DNA from: Bacteriovorax sp. BSW11_IV | GTDB taxonomy: Bacteria; Bdellovibrionota; Bacteriovoracia; Bacteriovoracales; Bacteriovoracaceae | Direction: 5' to 3' | NCBI RefSeq assembly: GCF_000447755.1 | Contig: NZ_AUNE01000008.1 | Span: 1 to 64,000 of the forward strand | DNA: 64,000 nt | Part shown: positions 13,383 to 36,280 of the stretch, piece after piece | Layout: each line of letters begins with the position of its first letter | Position numbering within the stretch: position 1 is the first letter of the stretch | The notes under the pieces: generated by a model | Told to the model about the DNA's origin: nothing | Databases searched by the model: none | Seen by the model: the letters and a program-made list of their open reading frames with translations, nothing else | Made by a program: the position numbers and the translations under genes

Positions 13383-15488
13383 ATGGAAGATTTTGAGAGA
13401 GAGTTGAAGGAAGATTTTTTAGATGAATCAATGCAATTGCTTGAAGATTCGGAGCAGGCATTTTTACAACTAGAGCACGATAAAAATAGTGCAGATCTTC
13501 TAGACCAAATTTTTAGACTAGCACATAACTTGAAGGGGACATCGAGAGCTGTTGGCTTTGGAGAGGTTGCTGAGTTTACTCACGAAATGGAAAACCTAAT
13601 TCTAAAAGTTAAGACTGGCGATGTTGAAATCACCGATTATGTCGTTACAGTTCTTCTAGAGTGTAATGATCACATTAGTCACATGATCACATCATTAAAA
13701 GAAGATCTTGATGCTACGTTTGATAGCGTAGAGATTGTCGCAAAAATTATTGGTGTTATTGAAGGCAATGCACCTGATTCGGTTTCACAAGCAGTAGATG
13801 AAGCATATGAAGAGCCAAGTTATGAAGAAGAATCTCTTCCTGAAGCTTCGGCCTTTGAAGAAGACGCTCCGGCCGCTGCAGAGAATTGGGAAGGTCTAGA
13901 AGACGAACTCGATCAAATTCTGAGTGAACACAATGAAGAAGTATATGAGCATACAGCGCAAGAAGAGGCCGAAGAGCTGATTGAAATGCGTGAGAGTGGA
14001 GAGCTTCAAGTAGATGATGTTGCGATTTCTCAATCAGCAATTGAATCACTACGTGAATTGGGTATGAGTGATGAAGAAATTTTTGCTCAGCTCAATGTCG
14101 AAACTTCAAATAAACCAGCTGTTGATGAAGGTATGACAATCAAGCAAGGTGAAGAAGTTATTGCTAAAGAAACAGTAGCTCCAAAAGTTGCAGAGGCCAA
14201 ACCGATTGCTAAGCCCGTTTCTTTAGATGAAAAAAGAGCTTCTAATGCTGCTGCAAATGAAGCTGCTAATAAAAAGAAAGCAGAAGATGAAAGTATTCGT
14301 GTTTCATTGTCACGTGTTGAAGAACTCAATAACGTTGTTGGAGAATTAGTTATTCTTCAAACAGTTCTTGAACAAAGAAGACATGAGACAATCACAGACC
14401 CTCTTGCCAATAAGTCAATTTCTCAGCTTGGGAAATTATCGAAAGAAATTCAAGAAATTTCTATGTCATTGAGAATGGTTCCACTAAAAACAACTCTTCA
14501 AAAAATGAATAGAATCGTACGCGATACTTCTAAGACCTTAAATAAAATTGTAAATCTTTCTCTTGTTGGGGAAGAAACAGAAATTGATAAAACAGTTCTT
14601 GAGCATTTATCAGATCCTCTTGTACACATCGTTAGAAATGCTGTTGATCATGGTCTTGAAGATACGGAAGGCCGTATCAGAGCAGGTAAGAGTGAACACG
14701 GTAATGTTACAATTAAGGCCTTTCATGAAGGTAACAATCTTGTAATCGAAATTACTGATGATGGTAAAGGGATTAACGCAGATATCATCAGAAAGAAGGC
14801 GCTAGAGAAGAAGTTAATCTCTCCTAATTCTAGTATCCCAGATCACGAGATGATCCAATATATTTTCCACCCAGGTTTCTCGACAAAAGAACAGGTTACT
14901 GAAGTATCTGGTCGTGGTGTCGGGATGGATGTAGTTAAAACAAATATTGAAAAACTAAGTGGTAGCGTTCAAGTTATCACTGATGTTGGTGTTGGTAGTA
15001 CATTTAGAGTTGTGCTTCCATTAACTATGGCAATCATCGAAGGTATGGTTGTTAGAGTTGGACAAGAAAAATACATTATTCCTCTTGGGCAAGTTCATGA
15101 ATCTTTAAAACCAACGAAAGAGATGGTTCACTTTATTACTGGTATGGGTGAGTGTTTAAATTTAAGAGGAGAGGTCCTTCCATTATTTAATATTGGAAAT
15201 ACTCTTGCTCGTAAAATGGATGATACTAACTCATGTGAGAAAATTGCAATTATCGTTCATTCTTCAAACTTCAATTTTGCTGTTCTAGTTGATGATATTT
15301 TACATCAACAGCAAGTTGTTATTAAGAAGCTTGGCGATGAAATTAGACAGCAAAAAGGATTCATGGGTAGTTCAATCTTAGGTGATGGTAGACCATCATT
15401 CATCTTAGATTTGAATGAATTATATTCTTCATCACTTAAAAAACATAAAACAGCGTTAAAAGACAAATTACTTGGAAAGGCGGCGTAA
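13383..15488 (+). CDS. cheA: Chemotaxis histidine kinase CheA
   Basis: CheA phosphorylates CheY and CheB in response to receptor signals. Domains: Hpt (residues 1-105) with phospho-His48 in AHNLKGTSRA; an acidic, low-complexity linker (~120-290) with no obvious P2 CheY-binding domain; dimerisation helices from ~295 (RVSLSRVEELNNVVGELVI); HATPase with N-box HIVRNAVDHGLED (~415), DDGKGI (~459) and GRGVGMDVVK (~511); and a C-terminal CheW-like regulatory domain. 701 residues. It ends LLGKAA. GAGGAAAT precedes the ATG and cheW follows after one base. Confidence 0.97.
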   Translation: MEDFERELKEDFLDESMQLLEDSEQAFLQLEHDKNSADLLDQIFRLAHNLKGTSRAVGFGEVAEFTHEMENLILKVKTGDVEITDYVVTVLLECNDHISHMITSLKEDLDATFDSVEIVAKIIGVIEGNAPDSVSQAVDEAYEEPSYEEESLPEASAFEEDAPAAAENWEGLEDELDQILSEHNEEVYEHTAQEEAEELIEMRESGELQVDDVAISQSAIESLRELGMSDEEIFAQLNVETSNKPAVDEGMTIKQGEEVIAKETVAPKVAEAKPIAKPVSLDEKRASNAAANEAANKKKAEDESIRVSLSRVEELNNVVGELVILQTVLEQRRHETITDPLANKSISQLGKLSKEIQEISMSLRMVPLKTTLQKMNRIVRDTSKTLNKIVNLSLVGEETEIDKTVLEHLSDPLVHIVRNAVDHGLEDTEGRIRAGKSEHGNVTIKAFHEGNNLVIEITDDGKGINADIIRKKALEKKLISPNSSIPDHEMIQYIFHPGFSTKEQVTEVSGRGVGMDVVKTNIEKLSGSVQVITDVGVGSTFRVVLPLTMAIIEGMVVRVGQEKYIIPLGQVHESLKPTKEMVHFITGMGECLNLRGEVLPLFNIGNTLARKMDDTNSCEKIAIIVHSSNFNFAVLVDDILHQQQVVIKKLGDEIRQQKGFMGSSILGDGRPSFILDLNELYSSSLKKHKTALKDKLLGKAA

Positions 15489-15489
15489 A

Positions 15490-15987
15490 ATGAATGAAAC
15501 TCTAAGCACAATGAATAAGAAAAAAGAAGCAAACTCTGAACTGGAAAGATTCCTAGAATTTAGTCTTGGAAAAGAAGATTATGCAATTCCTCTACTAAGT
15601 GTAAGAGAAGTTATTTCAGTTCCTGAAACTACACCAATTCCAAAGGCCCCACCTCATTTCTTAGGGATCATGAACCTAAGAGGTCAGGTCATTTCGGTAG
15701 TAGATCTTAGGACAAAATTAAAAATAAAGCCTCTTGATAATAATCATGAAGAGTCTGTTATAATTGTAGATATTAACGGTATGAACTTAGGTATCGTTGT
15801 CGACTCGATTAACAAGGTTCTCGCTTTTCATATTGAAGAAATTAGCGAAGTTCCTGAAATCGAATCACAAGTAAATGCTGAATACATCCAGGGTGTTTAT
15901 CGTAAAGAAGATTCACTAACTGTTCTTCTTGACGTTGCTAAAGTTCTGGATCTTAAAGATTACGGAATGATGAAAAAAGCAGCATAA
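15490..15987 (+). CDS. cheW: Chemotaxis coupling protein CheW
   Basis: A 165-residue SH3-like adaptor linking receptors to CheA. Typical features are FLEFSLGKEDYAIPLLSVREV, the conserved NLRGQVISVVDLR strand and LDVAKVL near the end. I start at ATG 15490, with GGAAAGG (15474-15480) nine bases upstream; a TTG at 15472 is in frame but inside cheA. The C-terminus is DYGMMKKAA, resembling the CheA and MCP tails. A terminator-like hairpin follows before the next chemotaxis gene. Confidence 0.95.
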   Translation: MNETLSTMNKKKEANSELERFLEFSLGKEDYAIPLLSVREVISVPETTPIPKAPPHFLGIMNLRGQVISVVDLRTKLKIKPLDNNHEESVIIVDINGMNLGIVVDSINKVLAFHIEEISEVPEIESQVNAEYIQGVYRKEDSLTVLLDVAKVLDLKDYGMMKKAA

Positions 15988-16018
15988 ACCTTAAAGTAAA
16001 AGCTACAAAGTTCGAGTT

Positions 16019-16057
16019 AAGTAAGTGTCACATTTAATAAATGGCACTTACTTTTTT
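16019..16057 (+). terminator. Terminator between cheW and the CheR-fusion gene
   Basis: AAGTAAGTG (16019-16027) pairs with CACTTACTT (16045-16053), extended by partial pairing of the inner bases and followed by TTTTTT. It lies 31 bases after cheW and ends 16 bases before the next ATG, so it probably reduces rather than separates expression of cheR and cheB. Confidence 0.75.
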
Positions 16058-16073
16058 ATATCTGAGGATACCT

Positions 16074-17948
16074 ATGACAGCAATTTTGAAAAAACAAGAT
16101 TTTGAATATGATGAGCTAGTAAAGAAAGTCTCGGCCATTGTTGCAAAGATTTCCGGAAATGTTCTTGAAGAAAAACAAGCTCTAATGGTTCAGACTCGAG
16201 TGAAAAAAAGAATGTCTGAATTAGGTATTGTTACTCCTCGTGACTATATTGGTCATCTTGAAAAAAATCTAACATCAGAATCTCAGGTTCTGGTATCGCT
16301 ACTGACGACTCACCATACTTTTTTCTTTCGAGAATTCGCTCATTTTGAATTTTTAAAAGATAATCTTGGAGATATCGTTGCAAGAGTTAAGGGGCGAGGA
16401 GAAAAGAAAATTAAAATTTGGTCAGCTGCTTGCAGTAGGGGCCAAGAAGTATACTCCCTTTGTATGTTTTTGAATTTTTATCTCCCAAAAATTGATCCGA
16501 CAATGACATATGAGATTCTTGGAAGTGACATCGATCACGAATCAGTTGCGATTGGAAAAAATGGTGTTTATCACAAACGCGAAATTAAGACTGTTCCAAT
16601 GAATTATTTGGCAGACAATTGGGCCAGAGGAACTGGAGATATCTCTGATTTCGTTAAAGCTAAAAAGAGTCTGACTGATAAAACGAGATGGAAAACACTT
16701 AATCTTCTTACATTTCAAAATGATTTAAGAACTGAAAAGTTTGATGTTATTTTTTGTCGAAATGTCTTTATTTATTTTAGACCAGAGCAAATTAAACAAA
16801 TCGTAGGACAGTTCATGAAGCATCTTGAAAAAGGTGGATTCTTATTTTCTGGTATTTCTGAGTCTCTTGGTGGACTTGGAATGGAAATCAAAAACGTTGG
16901 TCCTTCAATTTACGTTGATAAAATCGCTGAGGCACCAAAACCTGCTTCTGCAACGACATCTCCAGTTGCTTCTGTTGGCACGCCAGTTCCTGCACCTATG
17001 GTCAAGAAGCTTCCTGTTATGCCAACTAAGTTTAGAGTTCTATGTGTAGACGACTCTTCGAGTGTTCTAACTCTACTTAAGAAAATTTTCTCTATGGATA
17101 CTCAATTTGAAGTTATCGATGTTGCTAAAAATGGTGTTGAGGCCAATGAGATGATGCAAAAATATAGAGGTCAAATTGACCTTATGACTCTTGATATTCA
17201 TATGCCAGATATGGACGGTGTGACTTACCTAGAGAAGTATTATAATTCATCTCACCCTCCAGTTGTCATGATTTCTTCTGCCTCTAGAGAGGATTCATCC
17301 GCGGCCATGAGAGCTCTAAGAGCTGGAGCAAGTGACTTTATTGAAAAACCGGCCCTTAATAATTTAATGGAGCGTGGTGAAGAGATTAAGACAAAACTCA
17401 AGGTCGCCTATATGGATAAGGCCTTTGTAAAAGAGCATATCTCTACTGTTGATAAGCAATTTGAGCACAATCTTGTTATTGGTGATGCCGCTTCTAAAAT
17501 GCGTGTTATGGTTTCAACAATTTCAGACCAGAAAAAAGTAGTTCACTTTTTCAAAGAGATTAGAGGAACGCAACCACCAACAGTTATGTTTTTCGAGGGA
17601 CAGGATAATTTACTCTTAGCTCTTAAAGATGACTTGTCATTAAAGATACCATTCAAAGTTGAAGTTTTAGATTCACTTTCTGCCGAATTAGAACCAGGAA
17701 AGGTTTATTTAGCAGACTTCTCTAAAATGTTTGAAGAGGTAAAAAGAAAATATTCAACTCGTTCAACTTCCATCGTTGTTTATGGAAAATGCTCTAAGCA
17801 TGCGGGGGATAAAATTATTCACTGGAGCAATGCTCACTTATTGATTGAAGACATCAATTATAAATGTGAGTTGTCTGACGTTGCAACAGACATCGTTCCA
17901 GCTACAAGTTTTGCATATATGTCATGTGAGTTTTTAAGTAAGAAATAA
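16074..17948 (+). CDS. CheR methyltransferase fused to a receiver domain and a degenerate CheB-like domain
   Basis: 624 residues. Residues 1-~280 are CheR: an N-terminal helical domain, SAM-binding SAACSRGQEVYSL, GSDIDHESV and VIFCRNVFIYF. CheR adds methyl groups to receptor glutamates. A Pro/Ala/Ser linker (~285-315) leads to a receiver domain with phospho-acceptor Asp374 (LDIHMPDMDG). Residues ~475-620 align almost without gaps to the esterase domain of the downstream CheB, but its catalytic Ser, His and Asp fall on Thr482, Glu508 and His576, and ~40 residues of the substrate region are missing. It is thus CheR joined to a whole, probably inactive CheB. ATG 16074 follows TGAGGATACCT; ATG 16041 lies inside the terminator and was rejected. 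Confidence 0.88.
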   Translation: MTAILKKQDFEYDELVKKVSAIVAKISGNVLEEKQALMVQTRVKKRMSELGIVTPRDYIGHLEKNLTSESQVLVSLLTTHHTFFFREFAHFEFLKDNLGDIVARVKGRGEKKIKIWSAACSRGQEVYSLCMFLNFYLPKIDPTMTYEILGSDIDHESVAIGKNGVYHKREIKTVPMNYLADNWARGTGDISDFVKAKKSLTDKTRWKTLNLLTFQNDLRTEKFDVIFCRNVFIYFRPEQIKQIVGQFMKHLEKGGFLFSGISESLGGLGMEIKNVGPSIYVDKIAEAPKPASATTSPVASVGTPVPAPMVKKLPVMPTKFRVLCVDDSSSVLTLLKKIFSMDTQFEVIDVAKNGVEANEMMQKYRGQIDLMTLDIHMPDMDGVTYLEKYYNSSHPPVVMISSASREDSSAAMRALRAGASDFIEKPALNNLMERGEEIKTKLKVAYMDKAFVKEHISTVDKQFEHNLVIGDAASKMRVMVSTISDQKKVVHFFKEIRGTQPPTVMFFEGQDNLLLALKDDLSLKIPFKVEVLDSLSAELEPGKVYLADFSKMFEEVKRKYSTRSTSIVVYGKCSKHAGDKIIHWSNAHLLIEDINYKCELSDVATDIVPATSFAYMSCEFLSKK

Positions 17949-17959
17949 AAGGTTAGGGA

Positions 17960-19405
17960 ATGAAGACCAATACAATTATTAGTACAAATCTAGGGAAAGA
18001 TTTTTATTTAAGAATGAAAGACATGATTTTCATCTCACTGCATTTCGAAGATTTTGCGGGTGCAATTATTCTTAAAAGAGATGAAATAAATTCTAAAAAC
18101 ATCAAAAACTTTTTTTCTCATTTTATGAAATCAAGAAGTGGAGCGAGGCCTGATTGTAAGTTAATTGGGCCGCAATCCCTCATTCGTTCAGCTCTTGGAC
18201 TGATAAGGGCCAGTGCTCTTGGTAATATTAAAGAAGTTGAAAGAACTGGCCAGTTTGAAGTCGTTTTTATTCCTCGCGATGGAACTTTACGTGTATCAAA
18301 AGATATCGGTGGGACTTCAACTGCACCTGTTACGTATTCTGAACAACCAAAAGTTATTGCGCGTAAAGAGCTTGTCAAAGTCCTTATCGTTGATGATTCA
18401 AAGACAATTCGTAATCTTTTAACGCGAATTTTAAATACAGCACCAGGGGTACAGGTTGTTGCAACAGCAGAGAGACCTAGTGAAGTTGAGGCCTTAATTA
18501 ATGAGCATAAGCCTGATGTCATTACCCTTGATATTCACATGCCAGAAATGACAGGAGTTGAACTCTTAAAGAGGATTCAACCTAAATACAAAATACCAAC
18601 CATTATGGTTACTTCTATAAGTATGGAAGAGGGACCACTGGTACTTGAGGCCCTAGAGCATGGGGCATTTGACTATATTCAAAAACCAAAAATGGAAGAG
18701 ATCTCTGAGGTGGCCCCTATTTTAATTGAAAAGGTCAAAGAGGCCGCCAATTATCAAGCCGCAGCTGCTTCAAAATTTTCAACAAAAACTGTGGGCAAAT
18801 TTGATACAGATTCTCTAGTTGTAATTGGATCATCTACAGGTGGTACAAATGCACTTAAAGATATCCTCACTAAGATGCCTAGAGAAATTCCTCCTATTCT
18901 GATTGTCCAGCATATTCCTGCTGTCTTTTCTAAGGCCTTTGCTGACCGCATGAATACACTTTGTCCATTTATCGTTAAAGAAGCTGAAGATGGGGAATTA
19001 ATCGAAAAAAACAAGGTTCTTGTGGCCCCAGGGGGCAAGCAGATGTCTATTGAAAGAAATGGACAAGGACTTAGGGTTAAGATTACAGATGATCCGCCGT
19101 TGAATCGTTTTAAACCATCTGTGGACTTCTTATTTAACTCTGTAGAGCCAATTGTGGCCAGAAGACATACTGTCGGTGTTATTTTAACTGGAATGGGTAA
19201 GGATGGGGCCGAAGGTTTACTTAAACTTAAAAAAGCAGGTGCCCTAACTATCGCTCAAAATGAAGAGAGTTGCGTAGTTTTTGGTATGCCTCGTGAGGCC
19301 ATTAAAATTGGTGCGGCCCACGCCATTGAAGATAAGAACGATATCGCTGCAAAGGTGGGAGAGTTCTCCCACCCAAATGCCAAAGTCGACAAAGTCGCGT
19401 CCTAA
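17960..19405 (+). CDS. cheB: Chemotaxis methylesterase/response regulator CheB with N-terminal extension
   Basis: CheB removes receptor methyl esters and deamidates receptor glutamines when phosphorylated by CheA. Residues ~135-255 form a receiver domain (VLIVDDSKT; phospho-acceptor Asp191 in LDIHMPEM). The esterase domain has the full triad: Ser292 in GSSTGG, His318 in VQHIP and Asp415 in GMGKDGA; the Ser-His spacing of 26 equals that of Salmonella CheB. The first ~125 residues are not part of standard CheB and vaguely resemble CheD (LIGPQSL..., KDIGGT near the end), but with no catalytic Cys. It starts 11 bases after the CheR-fusion gene, so the two are surely co-transcribed. Length 481 versus ~350 for typical CheB. 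Confidence 0.93.
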   Translation: MKTNTIISTNLGKDFYLRMKDMIFISLHFEDFAGAIILKRDEINSKNIKNFFSHFMKSRSGARPDCKLIGPQSLIRSALGLIRASALGNIKEVERTGQFEVVFIPRDGTLRVSKDIGGTSTAPVTYSEQPKVIARKELVKVLIVDDSKTIRNLLTRILNTAPGVQVVATAERPSEVEALINEHKPDVITLDIHMPEMTGVELLKRIQPKYKIPTIMVTSISMEEGPLVLEALEHGAFDYIQKPKMEEISEVAPILIEKVKEAANYQAAAASKFSTKTVGKFDTDSLVVIGSSTGGTNALKDILTKMPREIPPILIVQHIPAVFSKAFADRMNTLCPFIVKEAEDGELIEKNKVLVAPGGKQMSIERNGQGLRVKITDDPPLNRFKPSVDFLFNSVEPIVARRHTVGVILTGMGKDGAEGLLKLKKAGALTIAQNEESCVVFGMPREAIKIGAAHAIEDKNDIAAKVGEFSHPNAKVDKVAS

Positions 19406-22370: not shown

Positions 22371-23999
22371 ATGAAGATAGTTTTCCTTCTTTCAATGTTT
22401 CTTTTTATTTCATGTAGCTCGCATGATTTGAGGACAAGTAGTCGGAAAATTGCTTCTGAGGAATCAAAAAGAGGATGCGTTGGTTTAGTTGATGATTTAT
22501 TCAACTTACAGCACACAAAGCAACTTGATCTATCATTTCATTATTTAAAACACCACGAAAGAAAGAATGATTTAGCAAATTACTTTTTTCATCCAGAAAA
22601 AGAAGACCACTTTATGGTGCATTACTACACCGGACAAACTGGTTACAAAAAAATGTATGAAGACTTAAATCGAGAAGGGCCAAAGGACAAGAGAGCACTT
22701 GTGTATCGTTACTCCTTAAATAATGCTCTTAATTCTTTTCCTAAATTCGAAGGCACTGTTTATAGCGGTGCAGTTGTTGATGAAAAGACATTGAAAAAGT
22801 GGAATTTTAAAGTCGGAGAAGATTTACGATTCGATTATTTTCTTTCGACAAGTTCTGATTTGAAGATCGCAAAGGGCTTTTATTCTAGACAGATTCGAGC
22901 TTGGGAAGGTGAAAAGACTAGGGTTCTTTTTGAAATAGAAAGTCTATTTGGTAGAGATATTTCATCTAAGTCTAAATATGCTTATGAAAAAGAAATTCTT
23001 TTTAAAAGTTCATCTCGCTTTAAAGTTGAGTCCATTTCTGAAAAATCTCTTGGGACCATATTCGGAGATAGGCCAGAATCTCTGATCGTCGTAAAACTAA
23101 AAGAGGTTCCACATACAAAACTCAAAGGAAAACTTACGAGAAAAAATGCAGAAATTGACCCTAAAATTGAGATTAGGAGATTAATAAACGAAGAGGATTG
23201 GGCGAAGGCCCAAATTACAATGCCTGATACACCAGAGCTGTATTATGGTGAAGATAGTGCAGAGGATTTTTTGAATGCAGTTAAGTATGTAAAAGACCTA
23301 CCTCATTCAACAAATATTTCAATTGATCTGCTCAAAAATATTCATGCGATTGCGACAAAAAGTCATTTCTTTAGAGGTTATGAACAACGAAGAATAAAAC
23401 TCGCATACACGAAAGGTGACATTTCTTTTCAAGAGGCGAGTGCTTACTTAGAAGGAGTTGACCAAGGGAGACCATATTCTCGAATGAGTCACGAGAAATT
23501 GAGTGGAAAATTTAGAACTGATAAAGAAGATGATTTTTTTCATACAGGAGATCATTTTCTGCCCGAAGGGGAAAGGTATTTTACAGTAGATGATATGGAT
23601 AAATATAATACGAATCCCTATTTTTATGAAGAAATCGAATCTAGAGTTGAACTTTCCAAGAATCAATTTAAAACTGAGTTCCATTATGTTTATTCTTCCG
23701 ATGTCGAGAATGAAGTTCAAAATTTATTTGAACAGGCGATTCCTTTTTTAGATTCTGCCGCTAGTGATGAAGAGTATATTAGGTTAGTTAATAAGCTTGA
23801 GTTGTCACTAATGTCGATTCATCCTTTTTTGGATGGCAATGGTAGGGCCATTCGTCTATTTGCAGATTTTTTGTATCAAAAAAGAGATCTACCGCCTGTT
23901 TTAAGGCCTAAAGAGTATGACTTTACAATGAGCTTAGAAGAGATTTATGAATATACAATTAAAAATATGAATGACTATTTAGAGCTATATTCAAAATAA
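22371..23999 (+). CDS. Predicted lipoprotein with ADP-ribosyltransferase-like and Fic domains
   Basis: 542 residues. Signal peptide with probable lipobox FISC (Cys15). Residues ~75-230 match the pattern of ADP-ribosyltransferase exotoxins: KFEGTVYSGAVV, then FLSTSSD (Ser159-Thr160-Ser161) and the E-x-E motif Glu206-Lys-Glu208. The Arg usually in the first strand (Y-R-G) is Ser132 here. Residues ~300-530 are a Fic domain: LLKNIHAIA, GKFRTD and the complete catalytic motif HPFLDGNGR starting at His484. Fic enzymes usually transfer AMP to hydroxyl groups of target proteins; ARTs transfer ADP-ribose from NAD. Having both on one exported polypeptide suggests an effector or toxin acting on other cells, perhaps prey (inference). 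No immunity gene is obvious. No good ribosome site precedes the ATG. Confidence 0.85.
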   Translation: MKIVFLLSMFLFISCSSHDLRTSSRKIASEESKRGCVGLVDDLFNLQHTKQLDLSFHYLKHHERKNDLANYFFHPEKEDHFMVHYYTGQTGYKKMYEDLNREGPKDKRALVYRYSLNNALNSFPKFEGTVYSGAVVDEKTLKKWNFKVGEDLRFDYFLSTSSDLKIAKGFYSRQIRAWEGEKTRVLFEIESLFGRDISSKSKYAYEKEILFKSSSRFKVESISEKSLGTIFGDRPESLIVVKLKEVPHTKLKGKLTRKNAEIDPKIEIRRLINEEDWAKAQITMPDTPELYYGEDSAEDFLNAVKYVKDLPHSTNISIDLLKNIHAIATKSHFFRGYEQRRIKLAYTKGDISFQEASAYLEGVDQGRPYSRMSHEKLSGKFRTDKEDDFFHTGDHFLPEGERYFTVDDMDKYNTNPYFYEEIESRVELSKNQFKTEFHYVYSSDVENEVQNLFEQAIPFLDSAASDEEYIRLVNKLELSLMSIHPFLDGNGRAIRLFADFLYQKRDLPPVLRPKEYDFTMSLEEIYEYTIKNMNDYLELYSK

Positions 24000-29050: not shown

Positions 29051-30727
29051 ATGAAAAAATTAAACTTCAGAACACGCATTATGTGGATCGTTGGCTCATC
29101 GTGTGTTCTCTGCTCAAGTCTATCAATACTTGTCTCCATTTATTTTGGAAAGGAGGAACTCGCTGCAGGTATTATTGAAAAGGCCCAGACAATTCACTCT
29201 CGATTAGAGGCGGCCACTGAATACGTCGCACTACAAGGTGGCTTATCATCTGAAATTAAAAAATTCAAAGAAGCTTATTCTTCAGATAATCAAATGACAA
29301 AAGAAGACAAGGAACAAGTTTTAAAACAAGTTCCTATTTTCGCAGCAATGAAGATCGGTGAAAAAGATTCTCAGAAAGAGCGCTATCTATTTAGAGTTTT
29401 CTCGAATGAACCAAGAAGGAAAGAGAATTTAGCAAATGATTTTGAAAAAACAGTTTATGATAAGTTTCTAAAAGATAAAAGTTTGAAGCAATATGTTCAT
29501 AATGATGGTGAAGTGATTACTGTTTTTAAACCAGTTCGTCTTAGTGAAAAACAAGGTTGTCTCACCTGTCATGGTGACCCAAGACTCAGCCCGTGGAATA
29601 ACGGCAAGGATATATTAGGATATCCGATGGAAAATTGGGAAGATGGACGCTTACATGGCGTCTTTGCTATTTCTTCGAATATAGATGAGATAAGGGCCTT
29701 AAGGAAAACTGACGAGCATACCCGTACTCTCATTCTTTTTGGAATGCTTCCTATTATAGGTGTGGTTTTTATCGCTTATTTATTAATAAAGACGCCACTT
29801 GCAAATGTTGTTAATGTTGCAAATAGACTCCAAAAAGTTACTGATGGAGTAGGTGGTGCATCTAAAGAAGTCAATGAGAATGCCTCAAATCTTTCACAGT
29901 CCACAACAGAACAAAGTGCTTCGATACAACAAACAAGTGCATCCCTTGAAGAAGTTGAAACGATGCTAAGAAGAACAACTGAAAATGCACAGAATGCTTC
30001 CGCCGTTTCTGCAAGTTCTCAAAGTAAGGCGCGAGATGGTCAAGAAGTTGTCGCAAGAATGAATGAGGCCATGTCAGAAATTAATCAATCAAATGAGAGC
30101 ATCATTGTTCAAGTTAAAAATAGTGAAAAAGAATTTGATGAGATCATAGCTGTAATAAAAGAGATTGGTGAGAAGACACAAGTTATTAATGATATCGTAT
30201 TTCAAACAAAACTATTATCATTCAACGCTTCGGTTGAAGCGGCAAGAGCAGGTGAGAATGGAAAAGGCTTTGCCGTTGTTGCTCAAGAGGTTGGAAGTCT
30301 TGCTCAGATGAGTGGTAATGCGGCAAATGAAATTACGAATATGCTAACAGATAGTATTCAAAAAGTTGAAAAGATAGTTAGTGAAACCAACTCGAGGATT
30401 AATGATCTTGTTGATATCGGGAAAATAAAAGTAGAACTTGGACAAAGTGTTGCGAACGAATGTCAAATAATTCTAAAAGAAATTGTCCAGCAAATAAGTG
30501 AAGCGGCACAGATGAGTCAAGAGATTACTGATGCGAGTCTTGAGCAGAATCAGGGGATAAGTGAAATTTCAAGTGCGATGAATCAGCTCGATGGGGTGGC
30601 CCATCATAATACAAAAACTTCGAATGATATGGAGAAGCTAGCGCAGGGTCTTTCTAGCCATGCAAAAGAATTGGAAAATTCGGTGAAGGATTTATTGGTC
30701 ACAGTTCTAGGTGATGATAAAGTCTAA
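29051..30727 (+). CDS. Chemoreceptor with a c-type haem (Tll0287-like) sensor domain
   Basis: 558 residues. Transmembrane segments at ~10-30 and ~225-245 enclose a ~195-residue periplasmic domain with FSNEPRRKENLANDFE and GCLTCHGDP: a CxxCH haem-attachment motif at Cys170-Cys173-His174, in the context of the Tll0287-like (DUF3365) family. The cytoplasmic part is a methyl-accepting signalling domain with tip [20 protein letters not shown] (~380). Haem-c chemoreceptors are known from Geobacter and are thought to sense redox state or gases; the same is inferred here. AAAGAGG precedes the ATG. A terminator follows. Confidence 0.9.
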   Translation: MKKLNFRTRIMWIVGSSCVLCSSLSILVSIYFGKEELAAGIIEKAQTIHSRLEAATEYVALQGGLSSEIKKFKEAYSSDNQMTKEDKEQVLKQVPIFAAMKIGEKDSQKERYLFRVFSNEPRRKENLANDFEKTVYDKFLKDKSLKQYVHNDGEVITVFKPVRLSEKQGCLTCHGDPRLSPWNNGKDILGYPMENWEDGRLHGVFAISSNIDEIRALRKTDEHTRTLILFGMLPIIGVVFIAYLLIKTPLANVVNVANRLQKVTDGVGGASKEVNENASNLSQSTTEQSASIQQTSASLEEVETMLRRTTENAQNASAVSASSQSKARDGQEVVARMNEAMSEINQSNESIIVQVKNSEKEFDEIIAVIKEIGEKTQVINDIVFQTKLLSFNASVEAARAGENGKGFAVVAQEVGSLAQMSGNAANEITNMLTDSIQKVEKIVSETNSRINDLVDIGKIKVELGQSVANECQIILKEIVQQISEAAQMSQEITDASLEQNQGISEISSAMNQLDGVAHHNTKTSNDMEKLAQGLSSHAKELENSVKDLLVTVLGDDKV

Positions 30728-33994: not shown

Positions 33995-36280
33995 ATGACG
34001 ACATTTTTTAAACGTAGGAGCTTTCGTTTTAAGCTGCTGCTACTCATTATGGTAATGTGCCTCGTATGCATTTGTGTAACTTCTTTCATTTCATTTAGAA
34101 AATCGAAGGAAGCTCTTGAGCGCGAAACAGTCAACCAAATGATCTCTACGAGTGAATTATTAAAGCTTAGAATTGAATCATCATTAGAACATGCTAAGAA
34201 GATGTCGTTAAGATTAGGATCAGACCGCCTTATGGAAGGTCTGTTCCTCGCTTATGAAGGGGCCTTCTATGGAGGAAACTTCTCTGCTGGAAAAGATCTC
34301 AATATCTATTCTGAACCTTATCAAAAATTAGAGCAAATTTACGGTGATCGTGTCAGAGAAATGGCAAAAGATTTCAATGTAAAAAATATTTATCTTGCAA
34401 GTATTGATGCTCAAATTATCATGTCTTCTTATAAAGAAAAAGATGGAGAACTCCTAGGGAAAAACCTCGCAAATGGAGTCTTAAAAGAATCGAAGCTAAG
34501 TCAGTGTTACAAAGCTGCTAGTGATAGTAAAGGCAATCAAGTTTTCTTTAGTGGATTCGAATATCTCGCATCGATCCAAAGTGCCAGTGCATTCTTTTGT
34601 ATTAAAAAGCTCGCTGAATTTGATCACGCATCTGAGGGGATCTCTAAAGGAGACGTCATGGGTGTCGTTGTCTCACAAGTTGACTTAGATGATCTTAATA
34701 AAATCGTTACAAGTCGTGTCGGTATGGGAGAAACAGGTCAAGTTTACTTAGTCGGTGAAGATAAAACTCTTAGAAGTGATTTTTTCATTGGAAAAGAAAC
34801 GTATAATGTGAACAACTCTGTTAAGAATCAAATTAAAGTGGAGACGAGTTCTGTGGAGCTTGCTCAACAAGAAAAACAGGGTTACCACTATATTAAAGAT
34901 CCGAATGGATATGATGTATTAAGTTATTATTCACCTTTACATGCTTTTGGACAAACTTGGGCGTTAATAGGTGAAAAGCAAGTCTCTGAAGTTTTTCAGT
35001 CAATTTCTTCAATGCTTAATTTTATCATTATCGCCTCTGTGCTAACGTTTATTGCAATATTCTTTGTGGGCTTCTTTGCAATTGCTAAGATGATTTCACC
35101 AGTATTAGATGCCAATAAAACACTTCAAGGTGTTTCTGGGCATGTTGATACAAATTCTAATGCCATTAAACAAAACTCTCAAAAACTAAGCGCTGGTGCG
35201 ACTGAAATTGCAGCGGCCATCCAAGAAACCGTGTCAACTCTTGATGAACTTTCTAGTATGGTTAATAAAAACTTAGAAAACGTTGAACTCTCAGGTAAAA
35301 AATCAGAGGAGAGTCAAAATGTTGCTAAGAAAGGGAAGGATTCTATCGCCAGTATGATTGTGGCAATGGATGAAATTAATCAAAGTAATCAAGATATCGT
35401 AAAAGAGACTGATAATATTGGTGAGCGTATGCAAGAGATCATCAATGTTATTAATGAAATTGGTGAGAAAACGAAAGTAATCAACGATATCGTATTCCAA
35501 ACAAAGCTGCTTGCTTTTAATGCATCTGTCGAAGCTGCTAGGGCAGGTGAGCATGGTAAAGGTTTTGCCGTTGTTGCAGAAGAGGTTGGATCACTTGCAA
35601 GTGCATCAGGTAAGGCCGCAACTGAAATTGCTTCGATGCTTGATGATTCTACAAAAAAAGTAAGCGATATCGTTACTATTACAAAACAGAATCTAGAAAA
35701 GCTTGCTGGTCAAGGTGAGGAGAGAATTAAGCATGGTTCATCTCGTGCCAAAGAGTGTGACGAGGTTCTTAGTTTAATTCTATCAAATGTTGTTGAAGTG
35801 AATGAGAAAGTTCAGGAAATCAACTACGCCTCAAATGAACAGGCCACGGGAATTTCTGAAGTGGCCAAAGCAATGGGACAACTTGATGAGCTGACACATT
35901 CAACTTCATCAATAGCATCTATGGCCCTTAATAGTTCTAATGAACTAGAAGAAGAGTCAAAACGTTTGCAAAAAATTATTATTGATCTCGATAATCTAGT
36001 GAACGGTTTAAGTGATGATAACACTACTCTTTTACGCACGATTCCTGTTGAAGATGATTTTTCAGATCAGTCATTGAGAGATGATGATTTTTCAATAGAG
36101 GATCAAAATTTTGAAGATGATAAAAATGTAGAAGAAATACAAATCGCAGCAGAAGAACCTAAAAAGCGTGATGAGGTAGTCAAAAAAGAAGATACATCAT
36201 CAGCTAAAAAATCATCTGAGGTTGAAGAAGCCTCAAGTTTAATTCCATCGAGAGATGATTCCCGATTTGAAGATATTTAG
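33995..36280 (+). CDS. Methyl-accepting chemotaxis protein with dCache-type sensor
   Basis: 761 residues. Transmembrane segments at ~10-33 and ~345-368 enclose a ~310-residue periplasmic double-Cache-like domain ([53 protein letters not shown]). The cytoplasmic part carries the signalling tip [20 protein letters not shown] (~495) and a long acidic/charged tail after ~665, which is unusual for a receptor and may tether CheR/CheB or be a flexible linker. Its stop codon forms part of the terminator stem. In an operon with the single-Cache protein. Confidence 0.93.

Follow-up and report, generated by a model that had tools for sequence, protein, structure and literature searches.

In classical chemotactic adaptation the methyltransferase CheR and the esterase CheB are separate enzymes, of which CheR is constitutive and CheB is activated by phosphorylation, and only CheB is under the control of CheA. 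In CheB the receiver packs against the catalytic domain until phosphorylation by CheA sets that domain free, and the active site lies at the carboxyl ends of the strands. CheR has been described in fusions with TPR domains (PMC3447774), an architecture other than the one analysed here, in which CheR is followed by a receiver (REC) and a domain, termed pseudoCheB, that resembles CheB. No description of the CheR-REC-pseudoCheB architecture was found in the open-access literature on CheR-CheB fusions, on inactive or pseudo CheB, or on the adaptation enzymes of Bdellovibrio and Bacteriovorax.

Several systems lie close enough to this architecture for comparison. With CheB itself (PF01339; 1chd, 1a2o, 3sft, 6ymz) it has in common the predicted C-terminal fold, the order receiver-linker-esterase and a receiver of CheB type, but the pseudoCheB domain differs from CheB in that its homologues lack the Ser-His-Asp triad, some 30-40 residues are deleted, and it is placed behind CheR. 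A complete CheR domain (PF01739) is shared with ordinary CheR, from which the protein differs in carrying a receiver and pseudoCheB as well. Live CheR-REC-CheB proteins, represented here by nine loci, belong to the same family and agree in domain order and length class, but retain an intact triad. The adjacent gene, referred to below as the partner, matches CheD (PF03975; 2f9z) and the CheD-REC-CheB proteins of the phylum (four loci) in fold and order, but unlike live CheD it has lost the Cys and His and is not recognised by Pfam.

The window, that is, the whole stretch of 64,000 nucleotides that was analysed, contains a compact operon (13383-19405) in the order CheA-CheW-CheR fusion-CheB. The features required for the argument are listed here with their window coordinates and strand.

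13383..15488, + strand: CheA, with Hpt, dimerization, ATPase and CheW domains (Pfam), in one operon with cheR-REC-pseudoCheB
15472..15987, + strand: CheW (Pfam), in the same operon
16074..17948, + strand: cheR-REC-pseudoCheB gene, 624 aa
16314..16892, + strand: CheR methyltransferase domain, residues 81-273 (Pfam PF01739, E 9e-44)
17037..17369, + strand: receiver domain, residues 322-432 (Pfam PF00072, E 4e-22)
17370..17468, + strand: linker, residues 433-465, a conserved helix (E437, I438, K441) followed by a low-confidence stretch
17469..17945, + strand: predicted pseudoCheB domain, residues 466-624 (AlphaFold2, fold search, profile comparison, residue census)
17960..19405, + strand: partner gene pseudoCheD-REC-CheB, 481 aa
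17960..18310, + strand: predicted pseudoCheD domain, residues 1-117 of the partner, CheD fold without catalytic Cys or His
18380..18703, + strand: receiver of the partner, residues 141-248 (Pfam PF00072, E 1e-25)
18818..19354, + strand: CheB catalytic domain, residues 287-465 of the partner (Pfam PF01339, E 3e-60), with GSSTGG, QHI and GMGKDG intact
33995..36280, + strand: chemoreceptor whose C-terminal linker is long and closes with [11 protein letters not shown], a candidate docking tail

An in-frame ATG at 16041 is an alternative start which would add 11 amino acids to CheR-REC-pseudoCheB; with the shorter start of the 624-residue form, alignment proceeds from residue 1 in several homologues. 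CheA is the candidate phosphodonor to the receivers of both chains.

The first two domains are conserved in the manner of working ones. Residues R86, D152, N230 and Y234, which we take to form part of the SAM-binding and catalytic region of CheR, are each kept by 84 or more of the 86 homologues in a conservation census; the CheR domain is complete, with its key residues present, and is predicted to have methyltransferase activity. The receiver has an acid pair (D326/D327), a phospho-acceptor (D374) and a lysine (K425) that are invariant in 86 of 86 homologues, it stands directly N-terminal of pseudoCheB, as is expected for CheB, and a linker helix of CheB type is retained between the two. It therefore has, as far as can be judged from the sequence, the look of a phosphorylatable receiver of CheB type. 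The original prediction, made from the DNA letters and their open reading frames, of a normal CheR domain followed by a receiver with Asp374 agrees with the Pfam assignment of both domains.

A by-eye alignment of the C-terminal domain with CheB could by itself be due to chance, since BLASTP gives no significant match between the domain and the CheB next to it (E 4.4). When residues 440-624 are searched against Pfam, no family is matched even at an E-value of 10, and the PF01339 cut-off is not reached. In profile-profile comparison, a pseudoCheB profile built from 35 orthologous C-terminal domains scores 30.8 against the partner CheBs and 41.0 against the CheR-REC-CheB proteins, compared with maxima of 19.7 and 20.4, respectively, in 100 column shuffles and with 10-15 for the reversed profile. 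The AlphaFold2 model of residues 432-624, generated from an alignment of 34 orthologues that contained no true CheB, has a pLDDT of 86 and a pTM of 0.76. In a Foldseek search of the PDB this model has eight matches with E below 0.001, every one of them a CheB, and VIA-align gives CheB Z-scores of 15.5-17.0 over 147-157 residues, the next entry having a Z-score of 9.7. The structure prediction that had been proposed as a check has thus come out in favour of CheB, and by the model the C-terminal domain is assigned the alpha/beta catalytic fold of CheB.

The domain is nevertheless shorter than CheB, since 157 aligned model residues cover 197 CheB residues in VIA-align. A gap of about 30 residues follows “VYLAD”, the missing stretch lying between this motif and the strand that precedes TGMGxDG, and the total deletion amounts to some 30-40 residues. 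The alignment with CheB had originally been described as almost gap-free, which is true of the N-terminal half but not of the later part, where this deletion falls and to which the non-significant BLASTP result must be added; the observation of 23 residues between PP and PF in both the C-terminal domain and the neighbouring CheB is correct.

The catalytic residues of CheB have been replaced, although not quite as first proposed. In the profile register Thr482 occupies the position of the nucleophilic Ser and Glu508 that of the His, as originally stated, but the position of the catalytic Asp, located from the TG anchor of TGMGxDG, most likely corresponds to Lys575, one residue before the His576 that had been named. 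Among 89 aligned homologous domains, none has the CheB triad motifs (GxSTGG, QH, GMGxDG) intact, so that the triad, whose presence in close homologues would have spoken against the original prediction, is preserved in none of them. By way of control, all three motifs are found in 72 of 73 partner CheBs, the remaining one having GSSVGG with the Ser kept, and in all 11 of the live CheR-REC-CheB proteins examined. At the nucleophile position of the homologous domains the commonest residue is Ser (33/75), not Thr; at the His position it is Glu, and His occurs in only three domains, all of which have Gly at the Ser position.

The strongest conservation in pseudoCheB is found in P609-x-T611-S612-F613 and E592-D593, which are not CheB motifs. 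S612 is present in 75 of 75 domains plus a further 14 of 14, P609 in 74, T611 in 70, E592 in 67 and E508 in 54 of the 75. In the predicted secondary structure these conserved residues come after the carboxyl ends of strands, a statement that concerns topology and not distance. In a group of shorter forms of 577-590 amino acids (L042-L051, L053) the likeness to CheB detectable by profile has gone from the C-terminal domain and PxTSFxY and ED stay; the motif therefore outlasts the likeness.

A search with the C-terminal profile extended the comparison across the phylum. Of the 369 genomes, 103 contain the pseudoCheB domain; they represent 57 of 182 genera and belong to 13 families, and the frames that encode the domain are mostly 570-690 amino acids long. 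Matches to a one-sequence query on genome contigs are confined to Bacteriovorax/Halobacteriovorax. PseudoCheB is one of the faster-evolving parts of the protein, faster than CheR and the receiver, and its dN/dS in close pairs is 0.02-0.19, compared with 0.02-0.11 for CheR and the receiver, several of the pairs having a dS that is near saturation or not computable. Purifying selection on the domain and its presence in so many genomes and families show that it is not a case of recent decay, and a recently decayed gene or a frameshifted CheB can be rejected in view of the open frames, the conserved length, the number of genomes and the dN/dS values. Loss of catalytic residues together with purifying selection is what distinguishes a pseudoenzyme; pseudoCheB has both, and from its sequence and modelled fold we infer that it is catalytically dead.

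The partner gene carries a second domain of this kind. Its first 117 residues match nothing in Pfam, and comparing a pseudoCheD profile with the PDB sequences gives nothing useful. The AlphaFold2 model of this domain (pLDDT 86.8, pTM 0.80) has a single PDB match at E below 0.001, the CheD of Thermotoga maritima (2f9z_C, E 8e-4), and VIA gives a Z-score of 10.2 over 116 residues for CheD, the next entry being NTAN1, a related amidohydrolase, with 9.2. Profile comparison with live CheD, represented by 36 domains from the same phylum, yields a probability of 96 and a score of 52.6, the best shuffle scoring 14.5. The CheD motifs (GSC for the Cys, H..[LI]P for the His) occur in 0 of 64 pseudoCheD domains, as compared with 33 and 26, respectively, of the 36 live CheD domains. 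As modelled, pseudoCheD is a CheD fold whose catalytic residues have been lost, and since the phylum also has genuine CheD-REC-CheB proteins, the partner can be described as a CheD-REC-CheB in which the CheD has lost its catalytic residues. The idea of a single CheD split between the C-terminus of the first protein and the N-terminus of its partner is rejected, the two regions having separate CheB and CheD folds. Unannotated pseudoCheD domains on partner CheBs were also noted across loci L003-L141. The earlier proposal that a writer and a pseudo-eraser share one chain, beside a CheB with an intact triad, is upheld by Pfam, fold and motifs; what it overlooked is the pseudoCheD on the partner CheB and the conserved, sometimes fused, two-chain unit that the genes form.

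CheB catalysis appears, from sequence, to have been lost elsewhere in the phylum too. In genus g52 and its kin (four loci, families f3 and f8) the CheB domain of the CheD-REC-CheB proteins also lacks Ser and His but is of another kind: NAGS replaces STGG and CS replaces QH, the Asp motif is kept and Pfam recognition is retained. This CheB is fused through a receiver to a live CheD and not to CheR, and the genomes that have it possess a live CheB as well, either adjacent (in two genomes) or at another site.

Phylogeny gives two views of the origin of pseudoCheB, and long branches affect both trees. In the CheR tree the pseudo forms and the fusions constitute one clade (91/78) that is joined by the live L059 (100/99), a placement which suggests the decay of a live CheB; in the CheB tree the live CheR-REC-CheB proteins are nested among the partner CheBs. 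These sequences would be consistent with either the derivation of pseudoCheB from a live CheR-REC-CheB or the secondary origin of the live fusions.

The two pseudo-domains tend to be found together. Both are present in 88 of the 369 genomes, only one or the other in 15 and 20 genomes, and neither in 246; the significance of this distribution is inflated by shared ancestry, the 88 genomes not being independent events, and several of the single-domain genomes are fragmentary assemblies or weak matches. Because genes of one operon co-occur in any case, co-occurrence is no proof of contact. Wherever a locus offers enough sequence, the pseudoCheB and pseudoCheD genes are nearly always neighbours, across families, and natural one-chain fusions of the form CheR-REC-pseudoCheB-pseudoCheD-REC-CheB occur in about three lineages (the clade of L052/L054/L056, L114, and L131).

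Immediately upstream of the module, and on its strand, about 20 of 40 loci across the phylum have a gene that ends in a PSENDPRFEDV-like motif, with small variants of the DPRFEDV-like tail at L108 and L114. Nine tail-bearing proteins from module loci or from the window's genome were tested, and all are chemoreceptors in which a long tail follows the signalling domain; the same is true of a tenth, which lies beside a live CheD-REC-CheB. Since the tail is also found near live CheD-REC-CheB, it belongs to a wider system and is not specific to the pseudo-domains. It does not fit the classical CheR/CheB pentapeptide, the published receptor consensus for which has W at position 2 and F at position 5 (PMC7390727), and it may be a docking tail specific to the phylum. 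The consensus PSxxDPRFEDV followed by a stop was recorded at L102-L134, L145, L148, L150, L151, L226 and L227.

Taken together, the dead copies suggest that in this phylum, which includes predators, inactivated enzyme domains hold or steer the adaptation machinery. The interpretation preferred here, to which we give an even chance of being right, is that the two chains make up one phosphorylation-gated module for receptor methylation, in which the pseudo-domains are docking or regulatory parts whose binding is predicted. By sequence and predicted structure, CheR, the receivers of both chains and the CheB of the partner retain their key residues, which the two pseudo-domains have lost. The retained folds and joint occurrence point to the pseudo-domains as putative binding parts. 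PseudoCheB would most likely dock the writer either on pseudoCheD or CheB of the partner chain or on a receptor, at its methylation helix or its conserved C-terminal tail. By analogy with CheB, the receiver would pack on the CheB-like domain and release its face once CheA phosphorylates Asp374, and the released face would then bind a target other than a methyl ester, whether the partner chain, a receptor tail or the methylation helices. Writer and eraser would in this way be brought to one receptor, both controlled by CheA. Contact between the chains is favoured by the fusions and by co-occurrence, and docking is favoured by the tailed receptor encoded upstream. A fuller version of the module, advanced tentatively and with something short of an even chance, is that, phylum-wide, each chain combines a live receptor-modifying enzyme, a receiver and a dead relative of another such enzyme (CheR with pseudoCheB, CheB with pseudoCheD), and that the dead domains assemble a single CheA-gated complex on DPRFEDV-tailed receptors, within which adaptation would be set, instead of by two enzymes acting independently.

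The strongest of the rival explanations, already raised in the original prediction, makes pseudoCheB a competitor, which would bind methylation sites without hydrolysis and, switched by its receiver, shield methylated glutamates from the live CheB. The CheB fold, in which the active-site face keeps its place in the topology, and the retained order receiver-linker-CheB speak for a competitor, but the deletion of 30-40 residues has probably changed the geometry of the substrate site and the most conserved residues (PxTSF, ED) differ from those of CheB, so that we consider it unlikely. In view of the pseudoCheD partner and of the conserved, sometimes fused unit, binding between the chains or joint docking on the tail is at least as likely as competition. 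It is quite improbable that pseudoCheB is a structural remnant, kept for solubility or dimer formation, of a CheR-REC-CheB fusion that became superfluous once the partner CheB was there: the live CheR-REC-CheB proteins of the same family, the joining of L059 to the pseudo clade and the faster evolution of the domain relative to CheR and the receiver would all suit a remnant, but a domain that persists in 103 genomes and 13 families, with an invariant motif and a dN/dS well below 1, would not, and the nesting in the CheB tree means that the live forms may themselves be derived. A new catalytic or ligand-binding activity on the old active-site face, employing D485, E508-G509, E592-D593 and T611-S612, is more doubtful still; polar residues are conserved phylum-wide after the carboxyl ends of predicted strands and the nucleophile position is most often occupied by Ser, but the residues are not recognised as the catalytic constellation of any known enzyme, and the divergent 577-590 residue group, which lacks E508 and mostly lacks the likeness to CheB, retains mainly PxTSF and ED. 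A merely chance likeness of an unrelated domain to CheB, which the silent Pfam model and the BLASTP result might seem to allow, is ruled out with very little room for doubt by profile-profile scores above every shuffle and by a predicted fold that matches CheB far better than anything else.

A writer with a receiver, and dead domains on both partners, departs from the textbook scheme of adaptation. If the dead domains do organise the module, receptor methylation would here be controlled by a different design, and the way in which enzyme domains become scaffolds could be studied in a tractable case. Both architectures, CheR-REC-CheB and CheD-REC-CheB, are present in live and in dead form within one phylum, which allows a direct comparison.

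The genome to which the window belongs (3.65 Mb in 59 contigs) has one further CheR, one further CheB and 23 receptors, and no CheD is recognisable in it. One chemoreceptor in the window (29051-30727, + strand) has a Tll0287-like sensor region with CLTCH, a CxxCH motif of haem-binding type. A further gene (22371-23999, + strand) encodes a lipoprotein-like protein in which an ADP-ribosyltransferase domain (PF01129 and PF03496, weak) is followed by a Fic domain with HPFLDGNGR, and the combination of these two domains in one chain looks unusual.
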